A stretch of 7,443 nucleotides of DNA from an uncultured Oxalobacteraceae bacterium (GTDB lineage: Bacteria; Pseudomonadota; Gammaproteobacteria; Burkholderiales; Burkholderiaceae): the NCBI GenBank assembly GCA_946478765.1, contig CAMLDH010000190.1:1-7443 (forward strand). The letters are read 5' to 3'. The stretch's first letter is position 1. The number at the start of each line of letters is the position of its first letter. The notes beneath the pieces are model-generated. The model was not told the DNA's origin, made no database searches, and saw only the letters and a list, made by a program, of their open reading frames with translations. Positions 1-2,965 of this stretch are shown in pieces. Position numbers and translations under genes: made by a program.

Positions 1-47
1 GAGATAGACCTTGGTGACTGGAGTTCAGACGTGTGCTCTTCCGATCT
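1..47 (+). other. Illumina P7/Read 2 adapter contamination (not genomic)
   Basis: Bases 14-47 are the 34-base TruSeq Read 2 primer (it begins GTGACTGGAGTTCAG and ends CTCTTCCGATCT). Bases 1-5, GAGAT, are the last bases of the P7 flow-cell oligonucleotide. The 8 bases between them (6-13, AGACCTTG) sit exactly where the i7 index belongs. The order P7 end, index, primer is that of an intact library adapter, so this is untrimmed adapter at a contig end. Translations of it give the well-known contaminant peptides VTGVQTCALPI and MCSSDL. Anything predicted to start here is artefactual, and the true sequence begins at base 48. Confidence 0.97.
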
Positions 48-1093
48 TGCACCGCTTTCTGCGCCGGCCCGCGGTATTCTGGCGGCGTGTGGCGCCAGCG
101 CGCCTCCCGGTCCGCCAGAATTTCAGCCGCTGTTACGCCGAGTATGTGGTGCACGTTTTCGCCGACGAAGAGATAGCGGCGATCGCCGTCCGGCCCTTCA
201 AGAAATTGAAAAACGGCCAACGGCAGTGTTTCGGTCAGGTCGATCAGGCGCGTGCGCGCAGTCTCAGCGGCGACCTGCGCTTCAAGCAACTGTCTGGCGA
301 CTTCCTTGGCATCGGTAATATCCTGCCAGAATCCATTGAAGAGGAATCCGCCATCGGGATGCGGAATCGATGTCGACTCTCCCAGCATCCAGCGCAGTGA
401 TCCGTCGGGAAGCCGGATACGGCATTCCTGATGCCATTTCTCGCCGCTGGCCACGACTTTCAGGATCGACTCATTCACCATCGGCAGATCTTCGTCGATG
501 ATGAGAGAAAATACGCGGGCAGCGTCCGTGGTGACTTGTTCCGGCGTCAGCCCCAAGTGGCGCCAGTAGCTGTTTGCAAAAGGGAAGCTGGGAACATTTT
601 CTACCATCCGGAACTGATAGACGGCAACCGGCAGATTATCGGTGACATCGCTCAAGCGGCTATCGGCCTGCTGCAATTTTCGTTCAGCTTCCTGGCGTTC
701 GCTGATCCCCCGAATAAATGCAGTGGCATATTTGCGGCCGCTCTGCAGATAAGCATTGACGGCAATATCGACCGTCAGCACCCTCCCGCTTGAACAATGC
801 AACTGCATTTCGTGCCAGCGCTGCGTTTGCGCGCTGTCGTTGCGAGAGTCACAGGCCTCCCGCACCAGCGTTGCCCAGTCGGGATCGCCGTCGGCGGTCG
901 CGAGCAATGTCCCGATCTGCATCCCGACAGCCTGATTTTTCGCGATGCCAAACAATCGTTCGGCGGCGGAGTTCCAGAATTCGACCTTGCCTTCCCGCTG
1001 CAGTCCGATAATCGCCTCGGGTGCAACATCAAGCATCGCATGCAGCCGCCCGGCAAGTTCGGACATCTCGTCCGGTGCACTGTTCTCGCTCAA
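48..1093 (-). CDS. multi-PAS sensory protein, 3' end missing
   Basis: The reading frame is open from a start near 1093 to the adapter junction at 47, giving 348 residues without a stop. Residues about 15-135 form a PAS domain: LDVAPEAIIGLQREGKVEFWN at 21-41 is the classic PAS core, and ERLFGI follows at 45-50. A second PAS fold spans about 145-262 and ends in a PAC-like segment (RLPDGSLRWMLGE 227-239, then FWQDITDAKE 255-264). Short helical linkers (ERQEAERKLQQADSRL 132-147; AKEVARQLLEAQVAAE 262-277) join the domains. A third PAS domain starts near 283 and is cut. PAS repeats sense ligands, redox state or light and signal to an output domain such as a histidine kinase or GGDEF/EAL; that output would lie in the missing C-terminus, so the type of regulator cannot be told. 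No N-terminal membrane segment is visible, so it is probably cytosolic. I prefer the TTG start at 1093 because GAGG lies 8 bases upstream; an ATG at 1066 in the same frame lacks a good ribosome site. Confidence 0.88.
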
Positions 1094-1337: not shown

Positions 1338-2570
1338 ATGAGAAAATACAAGTTTCCTGATTGGTTCAATCAAGCGTGGCCGGACAGCCGGCTCGACGCC
1401 ATGAAGGCCGAAGGTGACCTGCTCGCCGATTCGACGGTCGCCATCATTTTCGCCAAAGGAGATCGCGATCTGGTCAATGCCGTAATGCCCGCGCTGCACG
1501 CACCCGGCGCCTGGCCCGCCAATACGCCGCCCGAACTCCAGTCCTATCTCGCCAGTTCGCAAAAATTGCCGGAATGGGCGGATCAAGCGACGCTGACGCG
1601 GGCATACGAATATATGACTACCCATGGCGTGCGCTACAACATAGTCTTGTTGTTCCTGTCCCTGCCGATTCTCAACGCATGGAAAACCGGCGGGGCACAG
1701 ACATTGGCGATGACTGGCCAATTGAGCCAGCGCTTCGCGCGACGTCTGTCAGAAACGCTGCGTTTCGTGCGCGCCGTGATCAAGGAGCAGGCGCTTGGTC
1801 CTGAGGGTGAAGGAATCCGCACCACGCAAAAGGTGCGGCTGATGCACGCCACGATCCGACATTTCGCGCGCAGTGCAGACGGCCCCAACGGCAGCGCCTA
1901 TTGGCAGAAAGATTGGGGACAGCCGATCAACCAGGAAGCGTTGACGGCAACCATGCTCGCGTTCAGCACGCTGGCGGCAGACGGATTGCGAAAACTCGGC
2001 GTACCGGTCTCGGCACAGGAGGAGTCTGATCTTTTGCATCTATGGAAAGTGATCGGCCATATCCTCGGCATCCGCGACGAAAACATGCCGGCCTCGGTGC
2101 ACGAGGCGCAGCTGCTCTGGAAGAAATGTGTAGATCGGAACTTCGGCCGCAGCGACTCCGGCGTCATGCTGACGAAGACGCATATCCAGTTCATGCGAGA
2201 TCTAGCCAAGGGCGATCCGCTGTTGGAGAGTGCGATGGGCGACGCCGACGCAGCGCTGCTGCGCTACCTGATGGGCTATCGGATTGCGGTACGGATGCTG
2301 GGCGCGCCGCGGCCGGGAATCTGGTGGCTGGCGGTATCGCTGGTACGCAAACTATTCGGACTGGCCGAAATCATCGTCGGCATGGATCGGCCTCTGCAAC
2401 TGTGGCTGAACGATCATGCCGCAGCGCTGCTGGAGAAGCTGCAGGAGTTTTGGGACCATCTGGACCAATCCAGGCCGTTCCACATTCCGAGCAAGGCGGA
2501 AGCGGAAGCCGGCATAGGCATGCCGCGCACACCCGTCGTGGCGGCGTCAATCGTACAAGAGACAGTGTAA
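1338..2570 (+). CDS. MpaB/Lcp-type (DUF2236) heme oxygenase family protein
   Basis: The 410-residue protein belongs to the oxygenase MpaB / latex-clearing-protein family (DUF2236), helical proteins of which the studied members bind heme b and cleave or oxidise hydrophobic substrates. It has the usual N-terminal pattern LDAMKAEGDLLAD (19-31) and the core KVRLMHATIRH (165-175). R136 and T140 (RLSET) and H170 have exactly the relative spacing of R164, T168 and the proximal heme ligand H198 of Streptomyces LcpK30 as I recall that numbering, a constant offset of 28. Positions equivalent to LcpK30 E148 and K167 would be A120 and E139, so rubber-type chemistry need not be conserved. No Tat or Sec signal is seen, so the protein is likely cytoplasmic; hydrophobic helices (102-112, 328-347) could contact lipid. 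GGAG lies 8 bases before the ATG. The frame stays open upstream to 945, but that stretch overlaps the PAS gene and lacks family similarity. The substrate is unknown. Confidence 0.85.
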   Translation: MRKYKFPDWFNQAWPDSRLDAMKAEGDLLADSTVAIIFAKGDRDLVNAVMPALHAPGAWPANTPPELQSYLASSQKLPEWADQATLTRAYEYMTTHGVRYNIVLLFLSLPILNAWKTGGAQTLAMTGQLSQRFARRLSETLRFVRAVIKEQALGPEGEGIRTTQKVRLMHATIRHFARSADGPNGSAYWQKDWGQPINQEALTATMLAFSTLAADGLRKLGVPVSAQEESDLLHLWKVIGHILGIRDENMPASVHEAQLLWKKCVDRNFGRSDSGVMLTKTHIQFMRDLAKGDPLLESAMGDADAALLRYLMGYRIAVRMLGAPRPGIWWLAVSLVRKLFGLAEIIVGMDRPLQLWLNDHAAALLEKLQEFWDHLDQSRPFHIPSKAEAEAGIGMPRTPVVAASIVQETV

Positions 2571-2591
2571 AAAAACGACGATGTCATCGTC
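2569..2591 (-). terminator. possible minus-strand terminator
   Basis: Read on the minus strand, GACGAT-GAC-ATCGTC forms a 6-bp stem with a triloop, followed by G and seven T residues (2575-2569) that overlap the oxygenase stop codon. It could end minus-strand transcripts arriving from the small secreted-protein gene, 375 bases away, and so protect the oxygenase gene from antisense reading. The stem is short and half A/T. Confidence 0.35.
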
Positions 2592-2693
2592 TTGTCATTC
2601 CCATTCACTAGAGCGGTTTGCGTGTCAGTGTGAGGGTAGCGAAGCGGTCTGCCGTGTTGATCGGAGGTGAGTGCAAGGGTGGAGCAGGGGTTT

Positions 2694-2711
2694 CGCATCG
2701 CATGCGATGCG
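2694..2711. repeat. perfect 18-bp palindrome inside the MITE-like element
   Basis: CGCATCGCATGCGATGCG equals its own reverse complement. It lies near the middle of the 246-bp element and could be a cruciform tip or a protein-binding site. Confidence 0.85.
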
Positions 2712-2722
2712 CCTGCGTAACG

Positions 2723-2744
2723 GCAATGGCTTGCAAGCCATTGC
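2723..2744. repeat. perfect 22-bp palindrome inside the MITE-like element
   Basis: The arm GCAATGGCTTG is followed directly by its reverse complement, with no mismatch and no spacer. It lies 11 bases after the 18-bp palindrome. Two long perfect palindromes this close together are not expected by chance. Confidence 0.88.
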
Positions 2745-2767
2745 GCGCCCTGCAAGGGCCGAGCACA

Positions 2768-2786
2768 GACAGGGTGGTTCCCTGTC
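2768..2786. repeat. hairpin GACAGGG/CCCTGTC inside the MITE-like element
   Basis: A 7-bp perfect stem encloses the loop TGGTT. An outer GCCGA (from 2759) can pair with TCGGC (2792-2796), giving a two-step stem. The upstream GCCCT/AGGGC hairpin (2747-2759) abuts it, so a transcript of this region would fold into several adjacent stems. Confidence 0.6.
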
Positions 2787-2872
2787 GAGCATCGGCAACG
2801 CTGCAATCGCCTTCGAGCAACGCGGCAGAACCCTTACACTGGCACGCAAACCGCTCTAACATCCCAGGAAAT

Positions 2873-2910
2873 GTGCGACGACATTGCGACGTCGGGCCGC
2901 ACGTTTTTTT
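2873..2910 (+). terminator. candidate terminator of the oxygenase gene
   Basis: GTGCG (2873-2877) pairs with CGCAC (2898-2902), with a further ACG/CGT step inside (an alternative is CGACG/CGTCG). G and seven T residues (2904-2910) follow. The plus orientation fits the oxygenase gene, whose stop is 303 bases upstream. Without the MITE-like element the distance would be only about 55 bases, which suggests that the element inserted between the gene and its terminator. The stem is imperfect, with a 5-base bulge. Confidence 0.45.
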
Positions 2911-2965
2911 CGTCACTTGAAATGGGAATGAAAACTGGTCTTTTCTCTGAAGCGGGTGTCATTGA

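Follow-up and report, generated by a model that had tools for sequence, protein, structure and literature searches.

A palindrome-rich 250-bp element from an uncultured Oxalobacteraceae bacterium as a probable divergent, module-bearing relative of Correia repeats

The window, a stretch of 7,443 nucleotides from an uncultured Oxalobacteraceae bacterium, contains a real, MITE-like element of 250 bp at positions 2609-2858. Our verdict is that the element belongs to a Correia-like superfamily, as a diverged form that carries an additional module. The fullest explanation, which we consider probable, is that it is a non-autonomous mobile element of this superfamily, a long form with an extra two-hairpin module, which is moved by an IS5-type transposase and acts at the ends of messages. 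The support consists of homology of the module, the same order of parts, compensated hairpins, dispersed relatives with 3-bp repeats and IS5-type ends on one family of relatives.

Anatomy and surroundings of the element

The features of the element and its immediate neighbours are as follows.

1338..2570, forward strand: MpaB/Lcp-type oxygenase (Pfam)
2569..2591, reverse strand: terminator-like hairpin with a T run, read leftwards, a candidate terminator for the ORF on the right (terminator scan)
2609..2858, forward strand: whole element, TA to TA, 250 bp; the orientation is that of the core in Cupriavidus and Neisseria
2609..2637, forward strand: left terminal inverted repeat, TA + GAGCGGTTTGCGTG... 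(inverted-repeat comparison)
2638..2647, forward strand: unpaired 10-nt bulge AGCGAAGCGG between the end and the inner stem (fold)
2648..2654, forward strand: 5′ side of the inner stem, TCTGCCG (TTCTGGC in most Cupriavidus elements and in those of Eleftheria)
2676..2759, forward strand: optional module, common to 4 of about 16 elements of the CH34 chromid (blastn)
2694..2711, no strand assigned: first module hairpin, an 18-bp palindrome with both varying pairs compensated
2723..2744, no strand assigned: second module hairpin, a 22-bp palindrome with all three varying pairs compensated
2758..2800, forward strand: diverged Correia-type core, namely stem GCCGA/TCGGC, CACAGACAG, hairpin GACAGGG-TGGTT-CCCTGTC, then AACG (alignment to CH34 elements)
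2823..2829, forward strand: 3′ side of the inner stem, CGGCAGA (fold)
2830..2858, reverse strand: right terminal inverted repeat, complementary to the left repeat at 27 of 29 positions
2866..2910, forward strand: hairpin with its 3′ arm running into T7 (2904-2910), a possible terminator of the oxygenase gene (seen in the fold, absent from the terminator scan)

The initial annotation described 27-bp terminal inverted repeats matching at 25 positions, with TA at both ends and two perfect internal palindromes. All of this was borne out. The repeats become 29 nt with 27 matches once the TA is included, TA lies at both outer ends (2609-2610 and 2857-2858), the termini are TAGAGCGGTTTGCGTG, and the palindromes of 18 bp (2694-2711) and 22 bp (2723-2744) are both perfect. 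In 2000 dinucleotide shuffles, a palindrome of at least 22 bp never occurred and one of at least 18 bp occurred in seven; in a further 2000 shuffles, the ends never matched at as many as 20 of the 29 positions. The z-scores of the fold were -13.7 (forward strand) and -12.4 (reverse strand), and none of 200 shuffles was equally stable. When the 14-mer end of the element was sought in the window with up to two mismatches, it was found at the two ends of the element only.

For coding content, we considered ORFs of at least 60 aa that overlap the element. Five of them (62-130 aa) were scanned against Pfam at E≤1; a sixth, 2042-2611 (forward strand), overlaps the element by 3 bases. Four of the five gave no match. 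ORF 2608-2916 (reverse strand) gave a single match (E 0.0035, 17.8 bits), which is below the family cut-off of 26 and which we take to be a chance match. The earlier description of the element as MITE-like and non-coding is supported as far as recognizable coding content is concerned; no match above the cut-off was found in the scan.

The stop codon of the oxygenase gene lies 38 bp before the element, which faces a convergent ORF. As judged by kinship, the contig is Burkholderiales-like. The best organism-named relative of the oxygenase, among the matches listed, is from a Burkholderiaceae MAG. The small ORF to the right of the element (reverse strand) matched no Pfam family. Elsewhere in the window, Pfam assigned an endonuclease/exonuclease/phosphatase, a PLD/VTT protein, an FKBP and a PAS protein. 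It should be mentioned that positions 14-47, at the contig end, are an exact 34-base adapter sequence, which we take to be Illumina TruSeq. Because the ORF of the PAS protein (2-1093, reverse strand) enters this adapter, its last residues are an artefact. A 14-bp inverted repeat, TTGTCATTCCCATT/AATGGGAATGAAAA (93%), flanks the element on both sides at 2592-2605 and 2921-2934.

These surroundings allow a reading in which the element is an immobile regulatory or transcription-termination structure of two convergent transcription units. It has a gene on one side and a convergent ORF on the other, terminator-like hairpins are close by, and the 14-bp inverted repeat surrounds it. The number of terminator-like sites (two, against a shuffle mean of 1.0 with sd 1.2) is not above the shuffles. 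Homologous elements at many places in Cupriavidus metallidurans CH34 and Eleftheria argue against this reading, and we regard it as very improbable.

Relatives in Cupriavidus, Neisseria and viral contigs

When positions 2560-2910 were compared by blastn with 72,556 plasmid and chromid records, two records matched at E 1e-5, both of C. metallidurans, over 2673-2772 (82% identity, E 5e-18). The module alone (2673-2759, blastn) matched four elements of the CH34 chromid with 83.9% identity (E 1e-17). In this chromid, we found 27 matching pieces, which we read as about 16 elements, of which four are long and contain the module and 12 lack it. The CH34 elements share an end repeat, the unpaired AGCGAAGCGG, the inner stem, the core stem and AACGAC, and most have the loop GCAGACAGTAC..GTACGGCAA. 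The bulge AGCGAAGCGG is present letter for letter, at the same position as in the window, in 12 of the 13 CH34 elements examined. It is found in three of the four module-bearing elements, the fourth (L006) differing by one base. The order of parts in the window element is the CH34 order: 29-bp end, unpaired AGCGAAGCGG, TCTGCCG/CGGCAGA, module, GCCGA/TCGGC, CACAGACAG and AACG.

The 84-bp module of the window is about 84% identical to that of the module-bearing CH34 elements, and the inner stem and core order are common to both. In contrast, the CH34 elements have GARGCNNTNTCAAAATGA-like terminal repeats where the window has GAGCGGTTTGCGTG..., the letters of the core hairpin differ, and their length is 190-191 bp against 250 bp. 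A search for the module in viral contigs gave six stretches, none of which shows the module, and a later search gave zero; the right half of the element gave only chance-like matches to plasmids. We found no published name for the module-bearing CH34 elements.

The core of the CH34 family (GCAGACAGTACAARTAGTACGGCAAGGC..GCAACG) is common to the Correia/NEMIS repeats of Neisseria, to Eleftheria, to Paraburkholderia and to several viral contigs, and the terminal repeats are mostly different. A CH34 element matched two N. gonorrhoeae records at no fewer than 40 places in each. One N. gonorrhoeae record, NZ_CP119140.1 (L106), is listed as a plasmid in PLSDB; its length of 2.17 Mb and its repeat content are chromosome-like. 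In viral contigs, the core pattern was found in eight stretches, six with Correia-type ends (one truncated) and two (L037 and L040) with other ends. More core-bearing elements are present in L160, L251, L291, L295, Eleftheria terrae and two Paraburkholderia records. The viral-contig elements with a Correia core include L251:2207-2306, L291:4737-4840, L037:2712-2791 and L160:6040-6148; the end repeats of L251, L291 and L037 are mutually unlike, and those of L160 are near those of Eleftheria.

The window element resembles the Correia/NEMIS/CREE repeats in being a small TA-ended inverted-repeat element with a long hairpin, and Correia repeats have short and long forms. IHF binding is a feature of strict-sense Correia/NEMIS repeats. 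The window element also appears to have part of the Correia core GCAGACAG...AACG, which is strong in the Cupriavidus relatives. There are several differences. The core hairpin of the window has diverged; the strict Correia terminal repeat TATAGTGGATTAA... is absent from the window element; and the Correia copies seen have no two-hairpin module. The length of 250 bp also lies outside the Correia lengths, given as mostly 104-108 or 153-157 bp in the portion of the literature available to us (PMC2649163). The label "undescribed" in the initial annotation holds for the window element itself as far as we searched but fails for its best-known relatives, since Correia repeats were discovered in 1988 according to the text seen of PMC10969869. 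The BRE, an approximately 90-bp repeat of Betaproteobacteria (Bordetella, Polaromonas and others), is described in the accessible part of PMC3110155 as having mobile-element features, as occurring in the bprJ sRNA region and as frequently tandem, unlike the window element. From this description, with which alone the comparison was made, the BRE of Bordetella and Comamonadaceae may be part of the same superfamily.

The place of the window element was examined with a model (R1). The model was built from an alignment (A4) of 12 module-free elements, which comprised nine of the 12 module-free CH34 elements together with L044, L160 and L046 and held no Correia-ended, module-bearing or window sequences; L014, L019 and L027 were omitted as more decayed. 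R1 found the Correia-ended elements submitted to it, those of L036, L038, L041, L042, L043 and L295 (E 1.8e-10 to 8.4e-4), the truncated Correia-ended element in L039 (E 1.2e-4), and L037 (1.7e-13) and L040, both with E below 1e-12. Among 168 further loci, matches at E≤1 numbered four in a set of 49, three in a set of 88 and one in a set of 31. None of the matches in the latter two sets (best E 0.067) was counted as an element, and R1 gave no clear elements in the 168 loci beyond those named here. L251 and L291, which a prior script filter had passed over, were recovered by R1. Two borderline matches in viral contigs were L182:2061-2169 (reverse strand, 21.5 bits, E 0.067) and L253:6678-6736 (reverse strand, 19.1 bits, E 0.092).

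In the window, R1 matched 2622-2845 on the forward strand with 22.9 bits. The E value was 0.0041 in a search of 108 kb and 0.00028 when the window was searched by itself, in which case the other strand gave nothing at E≤10. The match extends across the ends, the bulge and the inner stem but passes over 138 nt in the middle, among them the core. Hairpin shape alone can come near this score: the reverse strands of L047 and L003 gave 21.5 and 14.2 bits, and the unrelated-looking L182 gave 21.5 bits. The 22.9-bit match was absent from an unfiltered R1 run on the window, where the best score was 10.6 bits (E 0.38); its 224-nt span may have been too long for the unfiltered length limit. The core model (R2) gave 10.5 bits (E 0.38, rank 2), which is weak by itself and not significant. 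The link of the window element to the family therefore depends on the homology of the module and on the identity of the bulge; its link to Correia repeats runs through the Cupriavidus intermediates. The parts by which we define the superfamily (terminal repeat, AGCGAAGCGG-type bulge, inner stem, core stem and AACG, in this order) are all present in the window, the core being the weakest.

Compensatory change in the stems

In the module hairpins, all five pairs that vary between the window and Cupriavidus changed on both sides (two of two and three of three). Because every varying pair is compensated, the folded form of these hairpins is probably under selection, as RNA or as a cruciform. As judged from these substitutions, this suggests that the folded form itself has some function.

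In a five-row alignment of the window and long CH34 elements, both-side change was observed in 10 of 39 pairs (shuffle mean 2.9, a count that no shuffle of 500 raised to 10; 0-2 when slid). Because its four CH34 rows are closely related to one another, this alignment amounts to a comparison of two parties. For the 12 module-free elements of the Burkholderiales type, the corresponding value was 18 of 37 pairs (shuffle mean 7.9, none of 500 as high; 2-7 when slid). Twelve of these 18 pairs lie in the terminal repeat and five in the core stem. Paired change in the terminal repeat is also expected from a transposase that recognizes both ends, and the five core-stem pairs are more telling. An 18-row core alignment (A5) was then considered, from which we excluded L047, L014, L019, L027, near-duplicates and rows representing DNA that was already included. 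Its number of both-side-change pairs, five, was reached by 27 of 500 shuffles; its percentage paired, cells changed, pair types and score were reached by none of the 500. The initial annotation had raised a functional RNA or a cruciform as a meaning of the internal folding. The compensatory changes in the alignments of relatives favour a role of this kind, and the choice between RNA and cruciform is left undecided by the mismatch counts, since the distinct G-T and A-C mismatches (13 vs 7, 4 vs 3 and 2 vs 0) do not separate RNA from DNA.

These results bear on a reading in which selection acts on a conserved structured RNA (or cruciform); the Correia-type core would be functional in itself and would have been joined to several different terminal repeats. 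No relationship is apparent among the terminal repeats when those of the Correia-ended elements, L251, L291, L037 and the window are compared, while both paired and unpaired positions of the core persist (15 of 52 columns are invariant in the 18-row alignment). The stems covary in the five-row and 12-row alignments and, by four of five measures, in the 18-row alignment. However, related rows inflate the covariation counts, the mismatch test is neutral as to RNA or DNA, and Rfam gave nothing at the gathering score (two weak sub-threshold matches were returned, one lying outside the element). Moreover, AACAAAA.TCAG is common by eye to the Eleftheria and Correia ends, so that these ends may be diverged kin and not swapped. 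We consider this reading possible, with the balance somewhat against it.

Terminal repeats, candidate mobilizer and meaning

Eleftheria has 10 distinct 112-bp copies, nine identical and one with a single change, and all 10 have matching 3-bp flanks (TTA/TTA or TAA/TAA). Exact TWA flank repeats were present in six of 13 CH34 elements examined and in none of L160, L046 and L047. The Eleftheria ends are identical to the end of an IS5-family element of Pandoraea at 16 of 17 bases. When the Eleftheria end was compared with plasmids, 21 records matched. Eleftheria and C. metallidurans account for four of them. Among the 17 others, four have an annotated IS5-family transposase beneath the match, and in a fifth, from C. 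taiwanensis, an IS5-family transposase gene starts 41 bp further in. We examined three records with Eleftheria-type ends, from Pandoraea, C. taiwanensis and Sphaerotilus. The Pandoraea element (L103) is 864 bp, encodes DUF4096 and DDE_Tnp_1 in two frames and has 17/17 matching ends GAGCGGCTAACAAAACC; its flanks, TTA and TAA, are no repeat. The C. taiwanensis element (L104) is 865 bp, with a right end matching at 14 of 17 and TTA/TTA flanks. The Sphaerotilus plasmid (L105:2502-4641) has IS5-type ends with one mismatch each, TAA/TAA flanks and an ISAs1-family gene inside, perhaps an insertion sequence nested in another. Because of the 16 of 17 end bases and the 3-bp TTA/TAA duplications, IS5-type transposases are the best candidate mobilizer for the Eleftheria branch.

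For the window element, the same can be proposed by kinship only as a candidate. Its first six bases, GAGCGG, are those of the IS5-family elements L103 and L104 (ends GAGCGGCTAACAAAACC), but its end departs after these six bases and it has no transposase gene. Its terminal repeat gave no match to plasmid records at E≤10. Its end pattern was found in genome contigs in one stretch, from Bacteroides, which we take to be chance; one search with the window's end was made at a gap of 80-110, a spacing other than its own.

The initial annotation considered that the element fits the IS630/Tc1-mariner type. As an ordinary MITE of this type, it would have a TA target and an irrelevant interior. The TA at both ends and the flanks CTA/TAA, which have only TA in common, fit such an element. 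In contrast, the relatives carry 3-bp TTA/TAA repeats, the Eleftheria copies have IS5-type ends, and the interior is conserved between genera with compensatory change. This reading was thus not upheld, and we judge it improbable, although for the window element itself neither IS5 nor IS630/Tc1-mariner is proven.

Partners were sought in several replicons. For IS630, DDE_3 in the CH34 chromid and in one Bacteroides genome yielded none (0 of 2). In Neisseria, no paired Correia-type ends were seen around one DDE_Tnp_1 piece of an N. gonorrhoeae record; a short Correia element lies directly upstream of this piece. In two Eleftheria replicons, the end pattern (up to two mismatches) occurs at 22 places, and the 20 exact places are both ends of the 10 short elements; thus, these two replicons hold no IS5 partner. 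PF01609 occurs at 20 places in CH34 and Eleftheria; at the six of these that were examined, no exact 12-mers of the Eleftheria ends were found. Cupriavidus-type ends matched, among plasmids, the elements themselves and otherwise mostly chance-like sequences; bases 1-22 of this query had a 91% match in unannotated DNA of three Acinetobacter records. The mobilizing mechanism of Correia repeats had not been determined as of 2009, according to the part of PMC2649163 seen, and we found no later answer in the literature searched, including the accessible text of PMC5039591.

In the explanation that we prefer, an IS5-family transposase would have acted on the terminal repeats and moved the element to a site between the convergent gene and ORF. 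Upon transcription of either neighbour, the 3′ end of the message would contain the element, folded as a single long and branched hairpin; if the outer terminators are real, each transcript would pass through the element before stopping. Correia transcripts are reported to be subject to RNase III action (the portions seen of PMC10969869 and PMC2649163). By analogy, the folded element may be an RNase III substrate that sets the end and stability of the message, and message-end processing is the likeliest effect.

A broader proposal, which we put forward tentatively, is that the Correia-type core forms a mobile module, either structured RNA or cruciform, which is widespread in Betaproteobacteria, has become joined to several different terminal repeats and is moved in trans by IS5-family transposases; the long form in the window would add a covarying two-hairpin domain. 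In the literature searched, which left subscription journals mostly outside, we recognized no report of Correia-like elements in Cupriavidus or other Burkholderiales. Our searches found no print linking the members of the superfamily. Conservation of the interior fold across genera, with differing ends, goes beyond what MITE hopping needs and raises the question of the purpose of the fold. The non-Neisseria relatives with IS5-family ends make the question of the Correia mobilizer testable in harmless strains. If an IS5-moved structured core is confirmed, the Correia repeats, known for decades, would gain a wider family and a candidate mobilizer.
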